Source of the DNA: Caldisericia bacterium
Lineage (GTDB): Bacteria; Caldisericota; Caldisericia; UBA6126
Direction of reading: 5' to 3'
DNA length: 50,410 bases
Assembly: GCA_028700655.1 (NCBI GenBank)
Contig: JAQVSG010000006.1
Location: forward strand, 1 to 50,410
The notes under the pieces: generated by a model
The model's database searches: none
What the model was told of the DNA's origin: nothing
The model's input: the letters and a program-made list of their open reading frames with translations, nothing else
Shown here: one piece after another, positions 7,373 to 14,170 of the stretch
How positions within the stretch are numbered: position 1 is the stretch's first letter
How the letters are laid out: each line of letters opens with the position of its first letter
Translations under genes and position numbers: made by a program

Positions 7373-7403
7373 ATTGATGTATAACATGGTATACACAAGG
7401 TTG

Positions 7404-8369
7404 ATGAAGACTTTCTTTTTGTCGCTAGGGGTTGTTTTGCTTGTATTGTTCGGCTTTTATCTATATCGTCAACCCAGTGAATCTCCCTTTAAAAATCCTA
7501 TTTCGGAAACATCCCCTCTTCGTATTGGACTCATTCTTCGAACTTCTACAAACCCTCTTTATAGGAACATAGAAGAAGGTGCTCGACTTGCCGAAACAGC
7601 GTTGGATATTCGATTAATTGTAAAAACAGGTACAAGTGAAACATCTGTGATGCAACAGATTGATATTGTACAAAGATGTATTGACGAGAATGTAAATGCT
7701 ATTGTTATCACACCGGTTGGATCTGAAATACTTCCGATATTAAAACGCGCTAATGACAAGGGGATACCCATTGTTCTTGTTGAAAACCCTTTGCAGCAGG
7801 AACTGTTGAAAGAATATGAACTAGACCATCTTCCTTTTATTGGTATTGACAATGAGATAGCTTCCCAAGAAGCTGCTTTCGAGCTGGCAAAATGTCTGCA
7901 AGAACCAGCTGATGCACTAATTATTGAAGGAAACCCTTTCAATGAGAGTAGTCGTCAAAGAGCAAAGGGTGCAAAGGACGTATTTTCATCCCATCCCATG
8001 ATCCGCCAAGTCTATTCCGAATATGGTTCTTATAGCATTGAAACCGCAAAAAAAAGTGTTGAAAAAATGATGAATGAACACCCTTCTATCCGCCTCATTT
8101 TTTCCATCAATGATATGATGGCAATTGGCGCTTATCAATATGTAAAAGAGAATAATAGACACGATATCTTTATTTTATCAGTAGACGGGACGTCCTTTAG
8201 TAAAGATCTTTTTGAACAAGATGAAATTGCTGTTGTTTTGGACCAAAATGCAAAACAACAAGGATTTGAAGCGATACGAACTGCTGAGAAGATGACGCGA
8301 ATGGATATGAGCTCGTATGTTCGGTTCGTACAATATGAAATTTTATCTTCAATCCACCATTTAAAATGA
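7404..8369 (+). CDS. Membrane-anchored periplasmic sugar-binding-type protein
   Basis: The 321-residue product starts MKTFFLSLGVVLLVLFGFYLYRQ, a single N-terminal membrane anchor with no lipobox cysteine, followed by a type I periplasmic binding fold of the RbsB/Peripla_BP_4 kind. Diagnostic segments are LRIGLILRTSTNPLY, a V-N-A-I-V-I-T-P-V-G strand, KGIPIVLVENP, the LIIEGN hinge, an R-x-x-G-A-K-D helix, and IFSINDMMAIGAYQ. Family members bind ribose-like sugars, AI-2 or related ligands. Its stop overlaps the start of the next gene, a sensor kinase, by four bases (ATGA). No ABC transporter genes are nearby, so a sensory rather than a transport role is likely. In-frame ATGs at 7377 and 7386 are alternatives, disfavoured by promoter position; an AAGG site precedes 7404. 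Confidence 0.82.
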   Translation: MKTFFLSLGVVLLVLFGFYLYRQPSESPFKNPISETSPLRIGLILRTSTNPLYRNIEEGARLAETALDIRLIVKTGTSETSVMQQIDIVQRCIDENVNAIVITPVGSEILPILKRANDKGIPIVLVENPLQQELLKEYELDHLPFIGIDNEIASQEAAFELAKCLQEPADALIIEGNPFNESSRQRAKGAKDVFSSHPMIRQVYSEYGSYSIETAKKSVEKMMNEHPSIRLIFSINDMMAIGAYQYVKENNRHDIFILSVDGTSFSKDLFEQDEIAVVLDQNAKQQGFEAIRTAEKMTRMDMSSYVRFVQYEILSSIHHLK

Positions 8370-10618
8370 AGTACTCTCGCCAAATTGAACATTTCTTTTC
8401 AAAAGCTCGTACTTTGTTTTACAAAATACGTTCATTTTTCACACTCGACAAACGGTTTTTCTTTTCGATTTTGATCCTTACCCTGATTCCCTTGTTCCTC
8501 GTTGAGTTTTTTTCACTATCGTCTTTGTTTCAATCCAAAATACAAAATTCAAAAAAAGAAATACTTAATGAGCGGGTAGATGACATTGATACGTATATGG
8601 ATTCATTGCATATGGTGATTGAAAATCTCATTCATCATGATCAAATTAAAGATATTCTGGTAGAAAATGAAAACAAGGATGATATCTATCATCAGCTTCG
8701 TTCCCAAGAAAAAATTGGTTCCATTTTAAGCAACTATATCCAATTGCAAGATATTCTTTTTATTGATCTTTTTTCTACTGATGGATCCCACTATCATGTG
8801 GGGGATACTTTATCAACGGAAGGTATTAACAACGTTGCGGTTACGCAATTGAAAGATTTTGCTAGGCACAATACAACATCTACCATCTTTTGGTCAGGGT
8901 TAATACCTAACTATTATGTTCGTTCTCCTGTCACTTCTATCATTGCAGTTGTATCGCCGATTTATACCATTGATCCCCTGACACTGCAAGAATATGTTAT
9001 TGGACATTTGATGATTGCCTTGGACCCAACCGTTTTCCAAAAAATGGATCCTTACAAAAATGAAAATAACGCTCGTATTCTAATTGTTGACAACGAGGAC
9101 ATAGTGATATATTCATCACAGTATTTTTCAACAGGAGATACGATTTCTCAAGAGACTGTGGACAGATTTCAAAGTGAACAATCGATTCATTCCATATCTT
9201 TCGACAATGTTTCCTATATTTTTTCTCAAGGAAGCTTATCAAATACAAATTGGAAAGTGTATGTTTTTTTCCCCGTAAAATTGTTTCTTAAGGATTTATA
9301 CCGTATCGGTTACCGATTTTTCATTGTTTTCTTGATTTCTAGCATTGCCCTGTATTTCTATTTTCTAAGGTTTTCAAAAAAATATATTCGACCGATTCGA
9401 AAACTAACCCAGCATTTTATTGAGTATAATCAAGGGAAATCCCTGCGACCCTTAAAACGATCTCAACGCACATATGAAGAAATAGGAGATTTGATAACCT
9501 GGTTTAATCAGTATACCGAAGATTTAGCTTCCAAAAAAGCAGCCGAGGAAAAACTAGCTCAATCACTTCTTAAACAAAAACACCTTGTTACCTGTATTAC
9601 CGAAACCATTTTGCAGTTGGACTATGATGGCACGATTCTTTTCGCCAATCCTGCCTGGAAAAACATTTCTGGATATAATATTGAAAATTGCATTGGCAAG
9701 ACTTTTATATCTTTCGTATACGTAGATCATAGAGACACATTTTTTTCTGCTTTTCAAGAAGTTGTTGATCATCAGAAAGATGGTATAACTGCGAAATTTC
9801 AGATTGTTAGAGAAGATGCCAACCTTTCTTGGGTTGAAATTCATTTTACCATGATGAACAGCGAGAGTGGAAAGTCAATTGTAGGTGTTTTATCTGACAT
9901 TACAGAACGAATTCGCATTGACGCATTGAGAGACGAGTTCATTAATACTGTTTCTCACGAATTAAGAACTCCCCTTTGTGCTATCAAGGAAAGCTTGTAT
10001 CTTATTAAACAACCCGATACAGGGAGTTTATCAGATATACAGACTCATCTTCTAGGAATAACTCTCCGCAACATCGATCGATTGAGTCTTCTGATTAATA
10101 ATGTCTTAGACTACCAAAAATACCAGTCCGAGACGAAACACATAACATTGTATTTAGAAAACATGAATGATACCGTTCAAGAAGCGATATCTCTGATGGA
10201 ACCGATAGCAAAACAAAAAGGATTGAAGTTAGATGCATTTTTAGATTATTCGATTCCTTTGGTTATGTTTAACAAGGACTCGATATTACAAGTCTGTATA
10301 AACCTCATCAACAATGCTATCAAATTTACTGAAAAAGGAAGTATTACACTTCGTACTCAGTTGTTTGATGCCTATATTCGTGTATGCGTAGAAGACACGG
10401 GAATAGGAATTCCCCCAGATCGTATCTCATCTCTATTTGAATCGTTTTACCAAGTGAGTAAAAGCCAACCTAATACAATAAAAGGGACTGGGCTTGGTTT
10501 ATCGATTTGCAAAAAAATCATTACAATGCACAATGGGAACATAGGGGTGGAAGGTTGTAACGAACATGGTTCGTGCTTTTTCTTTACGATCCCTACAATA
10601 GTCCATCCGAATCTTTAG
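8366..10618 (+). CDS. Sensor histidine kinase (dCache-like, HAMP, PAS, HisKA, HATPase_c), orphan
   Basis: The 750-residue kinase has a first membrane helix near residues 30-52 and an extracytoplasmic double-Cache-like sensor to about residue 310. A second helix (RFFIVFLISSIALYFYF) is followed by a HAMP-like linker with a KKYIRPIRKLT start, a PAS domain around residues 405-520 ending DITER, and then HisKA. The H-box is TVSHELRTPL with phosphoacceptor His531. HATPase_c has the N box (NLINNAIKFT), G1 (EDTGIGIP), F box and G2 (GTGLGLS), so it should be active. It overlaps the binding-protein gene by four bases and probably senses that protein's ligand-bound state. No response regulator is adjacent, and a short terminator follows. 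The arrangement recalls LuxP-LuxQ or ChvE-VirA pairs, which is analogy only. Confidence 0.9.
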   Translation: MKYSRQIEHFFSKARTLFYKIRSFFTLDKRFFFSILILTLIPLFLVEFFSLSSLFQSKIQNSKKEILNERVDDIDTYMDSLHMVIENLIHHDQIKDILVENENKDDIYHQLRSQEKIGSILSNYIQLQDILFIDLFSTDGSHYHVGDTLSTEGINNVAVTQLKDFARHNTTSTIFWSGLIPNYYVRSPVTSIIAVVSPIYTIDPLTLQEYVIGHLMIALDPTVFQKMDPYKNENNARILIVDNEDIVIYSSQYFSTGDTISQETVDRFQSEQSIHSISFDNVSYIFSQGSLSNTNWKVYVFFPVKLFLKDLYRIGYRFFIVFLISSIALYFYFLRFSKKYIRPIRKLTQHFIEYNQGKSLRPLKRSQRTYEEIGDLITWFNQYTEDLASKKAAEEKLAQSLLKQKHLVTCITETILQLDYDGTILFANPAWKNISGYNIENCIGKTFISFVYVDHRDTFFSAFQEVVDHQKDGITAKFQIVREDANLSWVEIHFTMMNSESGKSIVGVLSDITERIRIDALRDEFINTVSHELRTPLCAIKESLYLIKQPDTGSLSDIQTHLLGITLRNIDRLSLLINNVLDYQKYQSETKHITLYLENMNDTVQEAISLMEPIAKQKGLKLDAFLDYSIPLVMFNKDSILQVCINLINNAIKFTEKGSITLRTQLFDAYIRVCVEDTGIGIPPDRISSLFESFYQVSKSQPNTIKGTGLGLSICKKIITMHNGNIGVEGCNEHGSCFFFTIPTIVHPNL

Positions 10619-10633
10619 CGAATACATAGTAAA

Positions 10634-10656
10634 CCCAAAGCTTGGGATATTTTTTT
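10634..10656 (+). terminator. Short intrinsic terminator after the sensor kinase
   Basis: CCCAA (10634-10638) and TTGGG (10642-10646) form a 5-bp stem with a 3-nt loop, followed by AT and seven or more T residues. The stem is short, so efficiency is uncertain. Confidence 0.5.
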
Positions 10657-10680
10657 AAAAAGGTTCTGAAGATATATAAT
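10652..10680 (+). promoter_or_regulatory. Possible promoter of the TMEM175-like gene
   Basis: A perfect TATAAT -10 lies at 10675-10680. The hexamer 17 bp upstream (TTTTTA) is a poor -35. The -10 is about 40 bp before the start codon, and a strong GGAGG ribosome site lies between them. Confidence 0.4.
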
Positions 10681-10720
10681 ATAGGAATAAAATTTTCAAT
10701 GCTTTTGGAGGAATGTATAC

Positions 10721-11362
10721 ATGCGTCACAATAAAAGTCCTCTTCTTTCTTTAAATAGGCTTGAAACACTCACAGACGGTATTTTTGCTATCATCATTAC
10801 AATCATGGTACTTGGCATCCACGTTCCCACTATACCTACTAATTCTTCAAGTATGGAGTTATTTTATGCGCTGCGTCAATTAACCCCTCAGATAATATCC
10901 TACAGCGTATCGTTCTATCTCATTGCCCACTTTTGGTTATCTCATATACACCAATTAAAAATGTGTGTATGCACAAACAGAACTCACATTTTGTTGATTT
11001 TCATGTTCATTTTTTTTGTGTCGTTCATTCCTTTTACTACAGCCTTGGTCGGGCAGTACTCCGAAATCCGATTGGCTGTTGCTATCTTTCACTTCAGCGT
11101 TTTACTGGTGTATATCGTGTCCTTAATTTCTTGGGTGTTTGTGTCAAATAGTGAAAACTTAATTTCTCAAAAAATAGAAAAGAGACAAATCCAATTTGAA
11201 AATATTATTCACGTATTCCGCCTCTCTATACCTATCTTGGGGGTTGTTGTAAGTTTGTGGGAGCCCATGTACAGCTATTTTGTGTATGCATTTATGATTC
11301 TTGGAACCAATATTTTACGAAGAAATTTTCCGGATACATATTCAAGTTGTTCCACTACTTAA
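10721..11362 (+). CDS. TMEM175/DUF1211 family potassium channel-like membrane protein
   Basis: The 213-residue protein has about six hydrophobic helices. Its first helix contains RLETLTDGIFAIIIT (from residue 13), which fits the family motif R-x-x-x-F-S-D-G-V-F-A-I-A-I-T, with LTDG instead of FSDG. Bacterial TMEM175 proteins are small K+-permeable channels that assemble as tetramers in the cytoplasmic membrane; the Phe to Leu change lies in the signature itself. TGGAGG precedes the ATG. The stop codon directly abuts a pair of tandem 11-bp repeats that lead into the response-regulator gene, so the two genes may share control, but a common function is not shown. Similarity is mainly to the first motif and the overall length, which is typical of the bacterial forms. 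Confidence 0.78.
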   Translation: MRHNKSPLLSLNRLETLTDGIFAIIITIMVLGIHVPTIPTNSSSMELFYALRQLTPQIISYSVSFYLIAHFWLSHIHQLKMCVCTNRTHILLIFMFIFFVSFIPFTTALVGQYSEIRLAVAIFHFSVLLVYIVSLISWVFVSNSENLISQKIEKRQIQFENIIHVFRLSIPILGVVVSLWEPMYSYFVYAFMILGTNILRRNFPDTYSSCSTT

Positions 11363-11382
11363 AATCTTAAGAAAATCTTAAG
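11361..11382 (+). promoter_or_regulatory. Tandem 11-bp direct repeat, probable OmpR-type binding site (upstream copy)
   Basis: AAAATCTTAAG occurs twice back to back (11361-11371 and 11372-11382), followed by ATTT. Exact tandem 11-bp units are the layout bound by head-to-tail OmpR/PhoB-family dimers. Because TCTTAAGA is itself palindromic, the same bases can also fold into a 10-bp AT-rich stem with a 5-nt loop, but no T-run follows. The site lies between the channel stop codon and the response-regulator start. Confidence 0.6.
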
Positions 11383-11415
11383 ATTTGAAGTATTGAAAAA
11401 TGAAAAATTTGTGGT

Positions 11416-12168
11416 ATGCGAAAGGTTAAAAGAACATTGTTAGAAAAAACAAAAAAAAGGCTTCTAATTGTCGATGATGAGAGAGAACTAGTGGCCATTA
11501 CTAAGAAGTATTTTGAGTACGAAGGTTTCCTTGTAAGTACGGCATTTACTGGTTTAGAGGCCCTTCGAAAAATTGATGATACATATGACATTGTGATTCT
11601 TGATATATCGATGCCAAATATGGATGGTATGGAAGTTTGTAGAAAAATCCGAAGGCATTTTGATCTACCTATTGTATTTTTAACTGCCAAAAGTGAAGAA
11701 GAAGACTTGATAGAAGCTTTCAGGCTGGGAGCAGACGACTATATCACGAAACCTGTTACATTGCCTGTTTTGATGTCTCATGTCAAAGCCGCCATCAGGC
11801 GTTACCGGCATCTTTTCCACAACAAACGAGATATTGTTTATTCTACAACCAATTTCTCCTTTAACAGAACCAAGTATGATGTTCTCTACAAGGGGAAAAA
11901 AGTGCCTTTAACCAAGATCGAGTTCTCTATAATGCTCTTCCTGGCTGAAAACCCCAACAAAGTGAAGTCTATATGCGAGATATATGAGAATGTATGGGAA
12001 GAAGACTACTGTAAAACTTATGCAAACACAGTAATGGTGCATATTAACAACATAAAAACAAAATTGATAAAGGTTACTCGATCGGACCAATTTATAAAAA
12101 ATGTGTGGGGAAAAGGGTACAATTTTAATGATTTTTTGGAAGAAAAAATTTCCAAAAAAAAATCTTAA
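11416..12168 (+). CDS. OmpR/PhoB-family response regulator
   Basis: The 250-residue protein has a receiver domain (residues 14-130) with the acidic pair in LLIVDDE, phosphoacceptor Asp63 in VILDISMPNMDG, the Thr of FLTAK and the Lys of DYITKPV. A C-terminal winged-helix Trans_reg_C domain follows (residues 145-240) with VPLTKIEFSIMLFLAENP, a VMVHINNIKTKL recognition helix and a final WGKGYNF turn. It is therefore a DNA-binding regulator, activated by phosphorylation from the kinase encoded next. The start is weakly marked: no good ribosome site precedes 11416, and a TTG at 11437 with AAAGG upstream is an alternative that removes seven residues. Tandem 11-bp repeats lie before and at the end of the gene, which suggests self-regulation. 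Confidence 0.92.
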   Translation: MRKVKRTLLEKTKKRLLIVDDERELVAITKKYFEYEGFLVSTAFTGLEALRKIDDTYDIVILDISMPNMDGMEVCRKIRRHFDLPIVFLTAKSEEEDLIEAFRLGADDYITKPVTLPVLMSHVKAAIRRYRHLFHNKRDIVYSTTNFSFNRTKYDVLYKGKKVPLTKIEFSIMLFLAENPNKVKSICEIYENVWEEDYCKTYANTVMVHINNIKTKLIKVTRSDQFIKNVWGKGYNFNDFLEEKISKKKS

Positions 12169-12180
12169 GAATTTCTTAAG
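12159..12180 (+). promoter_or_regulatory. Tandem 11-bp direct repeat, probable OmpR-type binding site (downstream copy)
   Basis: AAAATCTTAAG (12159-12169) is followed directly by AATTTCTTAAG (12170-12180), a second unit with two changes, and then ATTT. It repeats the arrangement at 11361-11382, overlaps the regulator stop codon and lies about 120 bp before the kinase start. It can also form a 10-bp stem with a 5-nt loop. No T-run follows. Confidence 0.6.
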
Positions 12181-12298
12181 ATTTACCTCCTTTAAAAACA
12201 TACCTCGTTGTTTACAATAAAGTTGATATCGTTACTGGTTTCCATATCCGATATCTCACCAGTAAATGAAGTATCAGGAAATAAATGAAAGGTTAAAT

Positions 12299-14170
12299 AT
12301 GAGTATATTGATGAAAAAAAGGAGGTATTTTTTTAGTAGGATGAAAAGCATGACTATTTTTAAAAGAAAGAAAAAAATTTCGTTAACTGTTCGACTTTTT
12401 TTATACGTTGTTGAAAGCATCATTCTGTCTATTGTTGTCATGCTTCTTACAGTATATTTTGGTTTTAATACCAATTTTATGAAAGTGGTTGATTCCTCCA
12501 AAACATCCTATGATGTAAACGTTATCTATCAAGACATATTCGCAGGAAAAAGTATTACCAGTATATATATTCGATCTGGCCTCGGATATAGTTTATGTGC
12601 CTTCCCAAAGAGCACTTTTGAAATATTCCATGAGTATACTCCTGAGGAATTAAAGGAAGTGGGTGTATTTGTAAATGATGACAACGAGATTGTTGTATAC
12701 GACCCCTTTCTCTTGTTACAGAATACACTGGGGTTTGTGAGTAAACCTGAGGACATCCCCCCCTATATCATTCGTATTTCTTTTGAAAAGCACACTATTC
12801 ATTTCAACATTCATGTATATCAACCTGATTTGTTTGACAAAGAGAAAGTTGTAAAAGCTCTAGAAACGGAGATACATGAATCAACGTATCCATTTCCGTA
12901 TATCTTGCAATATCCCCAGGAAAATGATGAAGTGATTGGGAAAATCATGGACTATTACCATTATGACTTCGTTATTAAAAACGCCAAAAAAGAATCCATT
13001 CTTCAAACCAACATTCCACGGGTAGAAGTTGAAAACATCAAGCTTCCCTACAAAGGAATGTTGGAGAACGTATTAACAAAATTGAACACAGTGGATGATT
13101 ATGTACAAACTTTTTTCAAACGAAAACCAACGTTCGAAGTTATCGATCAAACCATTGTAGGACAGAACTTTTTAGGATATATATCGTATGGTTACCGAGG
13201 GAATTTATTCCTTTTATACCAATTCGCTTTGTTTGTGGGTGTTCTGGTTTTCTTACTCGCCTTTTTTCTTTTCAACCACTCTATCATTGCCTATATTCTT
13301 GAGATTGAGAAAGGAATTATGCGAGCATCGACAGGGAATCTATCCGACACAATACGTGTAAAAGGAAACAGTGAGTTGACAAGTTTGGCCACGAATATAA
13401 ATCAAATGGTTCATGCATTAAAAACAAAGTTTGAAGATGAAAAAAAGAATATTGAATCACGAGCAAATCTTATCACAAACTTATCCCATGATCTATTAAC
13501 ACCAATATCCACCATCATGGGCTATATTACCTTGCTACAAGAAGAAAAACACTCTTCTCAAGAGGAACAAATGGAGTATTTACATAGGGCCTATAATAAA
13601 GCAGAGATGTTGAAACAGATGATTCAAAACGCACTTAGTTATAGTGTCCTTCTCCGTGAACACCCCAAGGCAAATTGCAACTCTGTTTCTTGGAGTGAAA
13701 TGTATAAAATGTATTGCGATGAAGCCAAAGCATTAGCAAAGTCAAGTGGTTATCAAGTCATTATACACCCTACTACGATCCAATCGGATGTTGTTATAAG
13801 CCGTATTTATATGGAGAGAGTAATTGGTAATCTTTATATGAATACGATTAAACATGGAGTAAATACGTTACCTATAGAAATATCTACAGAAGAACAGGGA
13901 GAATATGTCACATTCTGCGTGAAAAATGCTGCCTCCTGCACAGAGGACTTAATAAAATACGGACAGTCTACAAGGAAAACAGTCTTTACGCGAGATAGTG
14001 CTTCTGGGTTAGGCTTACCGATCTGTCAGCAATTGATGGATCTTCAACACGGTTCTTGTTACACCACTGTAGAATTGCACTCTGATTCTTCTTCGACGCT
14101 TTGTTATTTTAAAGTTATCCTACGAATTCGAAAGGCGTCGTACAACGAAAATGCTAGTCGTACCATCTAG
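12299..14170 (+). CDS. Sensor histidine kinase, partner of the OmpR-type regulator
   Basis: The 623-residue kinase has one N-terminal membrane helix (VESIILSIVVMLLTVYF), a roughly 270-residue extracytoplasmic region of no recognised family, a second helix (LFLLYQFALFVGVLVFLLAFFLF), HAMP, HisKA and HATPase_c. The H-box is NLSHDLLTPI with His397 as phosphoacceptor; LLTP replaces the usual LRTP. The N box reads GNLYMNTIKHG and G2 reads SGLGLP. The usual D-x-G-x-G of G1 is replaced by VKNAAS, as in some VanS/KdpD-like kinases. It lies 130 bp after the regulator with a tandem repeat between. The start at 12299 is chosen because AAAGG sits six bases upstream; an in-frame ATG at 12266 lacks a ribosome site. 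The signal is unknown. Confidence 0.88.
   Translation: MSILMKKRRYFFSRMKSMTIFKRKKKISLTVRLFLYVVESIILSIVVMLLTVYFGFNTNFMKVVDSSKTSYDVNVIYQDIFAGKSITSIYIRSGLGYSLCAFPKSTFEIFHEYTPEELKEVGVFVNDDNEIVVYDPFLLLQNTLGFVSKPEDIPPYIIRISFEKHTIHFNIHVYQPDLFDKEKVVKALETEIHESTYPFPYILQYPQENDEVIGKIMDYYHYDFVIKNAKKESILQTNIPRVEVENIKLPYKGMLENVLTKLNTVDDYVQTFFKRKPTFEVIDQTIVGQNFLGYISYGYRGNLFLLYQFALFVGVLVFLLAFFLFNHSIIAYILEIEKGIMRASTGNLSDTIRVKGNSELTSLATNINQMVHALKTKFEDEKKNIESRANLITNLSHDLLTPISTIMGYITLLQEEKHSSQEEQMEYLHRAYNKAEMLKQMIQNALSYSVLLREHPKANCNSVSWSEMYKMYCDEAKALAKSSGYQVIIHPTTIQSDVVISRIYMERVIGNLYMNTIKHGVNTLPIEISTEEQGEYVTFCVKNAASCTEDLIKYGQSTRKTVFTRDSASGLGLPICQQLMDLQHGSCYTTVELHSDSSSTLCYFKVILRIRKASYNENASRTI

Follow-up and report, generated by a model that had tools for sequence, protein, structure and literature searches.

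The gene for an OmpR/PhoB-family response regulator in the window (the whole 50,410-nucleotide stretch of Caldisericia DNA analysed here) has a pair of tandem 11-bp boxes in front of it and a second pair at its end. Judged from sequence and placement, these boxes are very likely operators of the regulator encoded between them, controlling its own promoter and a separate promoter of the neighboring kinase gene, most likely by activation. The observations that carry this reading are the positions of the boxes, their conservation in one same-genus genome, their rarity, a fixed spacing to -10-like elements and the weakening of the potential RNA stem in the relative; binding by the window regulator, activation and its dependence on phosphorylation are what we infer from them. 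The genes and predicted operators are as follows.

11416 to 12168, + strand: OmpR/PhoB-family response regulator gene, receiver plus winged helix (Pfam Response_reg, 1.2e-29; Trans_reg_C, 2.1e-19)
12266 to 14170, + strand: membrane sensor histidine kinase gene, with HAMP, HisKA and HATPase_c (Pfam) after a long N-terminal part
11365 to 11386, + strand: predicted operator 1, TCTTAAGAAAATCTTAAGATTT, two TTAAGA half-sites with an 11-bp period, 5' of the regulator gene; equivalent site in the same-genus genome G001
12163 to 12184, + strand: predicted operator 2, TCTTAAGAATTTCTTAAGATTT, overlapping the regulator stop codon, 5' of the kinase gene; equivalent site in G001

Both Pfam domains of the regulator, the receiver and the C-terminal winged helix Trans_reg_C, score above the gathering threshold, and the receiver motifs VDD, LD, LTA and TKP, that is, the phospho-acceptor Asp, the acidic pair and the conserved Thr/Lys, are present in the window and in G001. 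In both species a histidine kinase gene adjoins the regulator gene, as expected of cognate neighbors. VanR/VanS are the best-scoring NCBIfam models for the two window proteins, yet both scores lie far below the curated cut-offs (193.8 bits for the regulator in VanR family NF033117 vs a cut-off of 350 bits). Judging from the AAAGG that precedes each of them, the true regulator start may be the TTG at 11437 and the kinase start is likely the ATG at 12300. Upstream of the regulator, window positions 7374-11362 hold genes for a sugar-binding protein, a PAS-containing histidine kinase and a TMEM175-like channel; the G001 regulator instead adjoins a divergent gene resembling xseA.

An earlier note on this DNA had described a tandem 11-bp repeat just 5' of the regulator gene and its recurrence, with two base changes, at the regulator's stop codon, and both are borne out by the sequence as read. 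At 11361-11382, AAAATCTTAAG stands twice in tandem (11361-11371 and 11372-11382); at 12159-12180, over the stop codon and 5' of the kinase gene, AAAATCTTAAG (12159-12169) is followed by AATTTCTTAAG (12170-12180). The first tandem copy begins inside the TAA stop codon (11360-11362) of the upstream TMEM175-like gene, and the second contains the regulator's own TAA (12166-12168). The scan for pairs with an 11-bp period that the note had proposed, carried out without mismatch over the whole assembly (G000; 1.95 Mb, 145 contigs, 89% complete), found exact TCTTAAGNNNNTCTTAAG at only three places, namely the two sites flanking the regulator gene and C77:7931, while a rough composition estimate gives about 0.05 exact occurrences expected by chance in the genome. 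Single 11-mers with at most one mismatch match six times in the window, which is not significant (15 of 100 shuffles reach six), and the significance of the boxes therefore lies in the paired, genome-wide and cross-species pattern rather than in single 11-mers. A one-mismatch match at C98:34772 looks like coding sequence.

The same-genus species G001 is a Caldisericia MAG whose contig matches the MAG Caldisericia bacterium SW_4_17. Its regulator is 48% identical to that of the window and is followed by kinase, tyrosyl-tRNA synthetase, urocanate hydratase and KBL-like genes in the downstream order seen in the window, with gene names assigned by reading translations. TGTTAAGATTTTGTTAAGATTT occurs in G001 at both equivalent places, 5' of the regulator and between regulator and kinase, with one base (C to G) changed in each half-site relative to the window, and no further exact copy was found elsewhere in that genome. 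Comparison with close relatives, which the earlier note had put forward as a test, thus finds the repeats kept at both positions, conservation within the genus resting on this one other genome. Among 49 genomes of the class that were scanned, the window genome and G001 are positive, and the exact element was found in none of the other 47. Because the second box of G001 lies about 35 bp 3' of the regulator stop codon, the stop-codon overlap of operator 2 is not a conserved feature.

The boxes are also placed at a constant distance from potential promoter elements, of which the following lie in the window.

11415 to 11420, + strand: weak and doubtful -10-like hexamer TATGCG, 31 bp after the last TTAAGA of operator 1, overlapping the ATG of the longest ORF
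12213 to 12218, + strand: -10-like hexamer TACAAT of the predicted kinase promoter, 31 bp after the last TTAAGA of operator 2
12191 to 12196, + strand: weak -35-like hexamer TTTAAA of the predicted kinase promoter, 16 bp before the -10

At all five sites a -10-like hexamer begins exactly 31 bp from the end of the last TTAAGA, the other three being AATAAT (C77), TATAAT (G001 site 1) and TAAAAT (G001 site 2). This offset was noticed post hoc and was controlled for by scoring every shuffle at its own best offset; the five-site result was reached by none of 2,000 shuffles with a weighted score and by none of 3,000 with simple matches. With three mutually non-orthologous sites, 1 of 3,000 shuffles reaches the result; the signal is weaker in smaller subsets, where 78 of 3,000 reach it with the three sites of G000 and 35 of 3,000 with the two of G001. 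The spacer between box and hexamer is mostly unlike between sites (6-15 of 28 positions identical), and therefore it is position, not sequence, that has been kept. A separate promoter-consensus scan recovers the promoter at window site 2 as TTTAAA-16-TACAAT. At window site 1, TATGCG would sit over the ATG and near the AAAGG ribosome site of the TTG at 11437, which leaves the transcript start there uncertain. The prediction of two regulated promoters is supported by the -10-like elements that stand, equally spaced from the boxes, ahead of both regulator and kinase.

If transcription starts 7 bases after the -10, the half-sites fall near -60 to -55 and -49 to -44, 5' of a poor -35; a position upstream of the -35 is a usual place for OmpR-type activator sites. 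In the mechanism proposed here, a dimer of the phosphorylated regulator would bind head-to-tail to the two TTAAGA half-sites 11 bp apart and, bound at about -60 to -41 just 5' of the poor -35, would most likely activate transcription. Operator 1 would serve the regulator (or regulator-kinase) promoter and operator 2 a separate kinase promoter, so that the system would control both of its own components. A self-regulating system with two sites, one of them perhaps for the kinase, is what the earlier note had suggested, and it gains support from the conservation in G001 and the fixed-distance -10-like elements, the -10 being weak at the window regulator promoter. We give an even chance to the further idea that regulator and kinase stand under two separate promoters with matching operators, such that the regulator-to-kinase ratio is set by feedback.

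Sites of the same type are found beyond the genus. The upstream regions of 79 regulator homologues (34-42% identity, mostly from Firmicutes, namely Clostridia and Paenibacillus) were scanned for box-like pairs, and pairs with at least 12 of 16 matches lie 5' of 25 of the 79, whereas shuffling leads one to expect 1.35 and the coding control gave none; the loci are partly related, and the 25 cases are not independent events. The strand preference of these boxes is uninformative, the search pattern being its own reverse complement, and a common -10 offset was not recovered in the Firmicute homologues. Among homologues, a separate boxed promoter for the kinase is unusual: regulator and kinase genes overlap or nearly abut (<30 bp) in 75 of the 77 loci measured, and of the gaps that reach 80 bp, G001's is the sole one listed with a box. 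A long gap carrying an operator is therefore, on present evidence, special to the genus.

The tandem 11-bp layout that the earlier note had ascribed to PhoB/OmpR dimers fits published direct-repeat sites. In vitro, by EMSA, RR_1586 of Clostridioides difficile binds 11-bp TTAAG motifs arranged as a direct repeat (consensus DRTTAAGNWWWDRTTAAGNWWW); autoregulation has been proposed for it, its regulon is predicted to be large, and in reporter assays it acts as a repressor (PMC6222199). The resemblance extends to an OmpR-family protein, the head-to-tail repeat with its AT-rich gap and the proposed autoregulation; the G001 sites fit the consensus exactly, and the window sites fit except for C in place of R before TTAAG. 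However, the large predicted regulon of RR_1586 differs from the three exact sites in the window genome. Repression, the effect of RR_1586 in reporter assays, or a mixed action could take the place of activation at the window boxes. Activation by the streptococcal regulator CiaR goes through NTTAAG-N5-WTTAAG, which stands ten bp from the -10 (PMC3091779). The CiaR box is likewise a direct TTAAG repeat with an 11-bp period 5' of the -10. However, whereas promoters of the CiaR regulon have the last TTTAAG 10 bp from TATAAT, in the window genome the end of TTAAG lies 32 bp from the hexamer, which is 22 bp, or two 11-bp steps, further upstream and would keep the same helix face. The putative recognition-helix residues also differ, being NTVMVHINNIKTKL in the window regulator vs VVEVYVSKVRKKL in CiaR.

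The boxes might instead bind another OmpR-family regulator of the cell, for example one of PhoB type, rather than the adjacent one. Several OmpR-type regulators are encoded in the genome, and a pstS-like promoter of the window genome carries related boxes, 11-bp CTTAAT units in tandem (C40:8112-8139, L171), which are probably a Pho box for a PhoB-type regulator. The Pho boxes of PhoB and PhoP are 11-bp repeats near or upstream of the -35, and Bacillus PhoP uses TTAACA repeats; on the other strand, the G001 sites read TTAACA-N5-TTAACA. However, the window sites are not accompanied by phosphate genes, the pstS-like promoter has its own variant boxes, and exact CTTAAG pairs flank the window regulator and otherwise occur only at C77. 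Both sites, moreover, accompany the regulator gene in G001, and similar boxes stand 5' of its homologues in other phyla, which makes binding by another regulator unlikely. A run similar to that at the pstS-like gene stands 5' of a pstS-like gene in another genome (G003; C29, L081 10000-10060), and the box-like matches of G003 at pstS-like and PhoR/PhoB-like loci were set aside as probable Pho boxes.

The earlier note had also pointed out that the same bases can fold as stems, and the repeats could act as RNA, in AT-rich hairpins around the regulator gene with a role in stabilizing, processing or terminating the transcript. The stems themselves stand: the window sites fold strongly (-9.7 and -9.6 kcal/mol, z -4.6 and -5.4), as does the C77 site. 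However, a half-site that reads the same on both strands, as TCTTAAGA does, will form a hairpin whenever it is directly repeated. The G001 folds weaken to -5.0 and -2.3 kcal/mol while the direct repeat is exact, the half-site change to TGTTAAGA keeping the repeat and weakening the stem. In addition, a transcript from the TATAAT promoter of G001 would exclude the box 31 bp 5' of it. An intrinsic terminator (a G+C-rich stem followed by a T-run) was not found in 11200-12450, and a terminator was rejected on this ground and on the loss of the stem in G001. An RNA or processing role is accordingly weakened, to the point of being very unlikely; the lack of a conserved stem in the relative was the reason for setting it aside. 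The repeat, of 10-11 bp period as in OmpR-type operators, is conserved as a direct repeat while the hairpin is not, which favors an operator in the DNA rather than a stem in the RNA. An origin as chance repeats of AT-rich sequence, or as a small dispersed repeat, would suit the AT-rich letters and the fact that single 11-mers with a mismatch are not rare, but is scarcely credible for exact pairs that the genome has at three places only and that another species keeps at both positions.

Direct-repeat operators of the adjacent regulator, the preferred reading, would very probably represent a well-known kind of switch in the little-studied phylum Caldisericota, with the separate boxed kinase promoter as the only unusual feature. 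A limited literature search found no paper devoted to two-component systems of Caldisericota, for which a concrete operator sequence and promoter layout are now proposed. The results suggest that the TTAAG direct-repeat code of Firmicute regulators extends to another phylum, and split control of regulator and kinase would add a modest point about feedback in two-component systems.

The region before the kinase has some features of its own. Between the predicted kinase promoter and the kinase start (window 12225-12265), TTACTGG/CCAGTAA and GATATCG/CGATATC can pair, a possible leader hairpin that is only weakly alike in G001. The gap between regulator and kinase in G001 holds a 10-codon ORF (MASKSGIGNI) preceded by GGAGG, in the kinase leader; no counterpart was identified in the window.

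A wide regulon was rejected, since only one exact site exists beyond the window pair. This third operator, at C77:7931 (L036 7931-9013), lies 5' of a 42-aa ORF and an Rhs/DUF6531-like gene, and it may serve this Rhs-repeat gene; no comparable site was found at the Rhs homologue of G001, and the third target is not conserved. A TAA interrupts the signal-peptide frame of the C77 gene, whose mature part is encoded in a different frame, close to a C-run. Contig C45 (L077) has at its edge a near-identical 5' part without the operator, with the same TAA and a shorter C-run.
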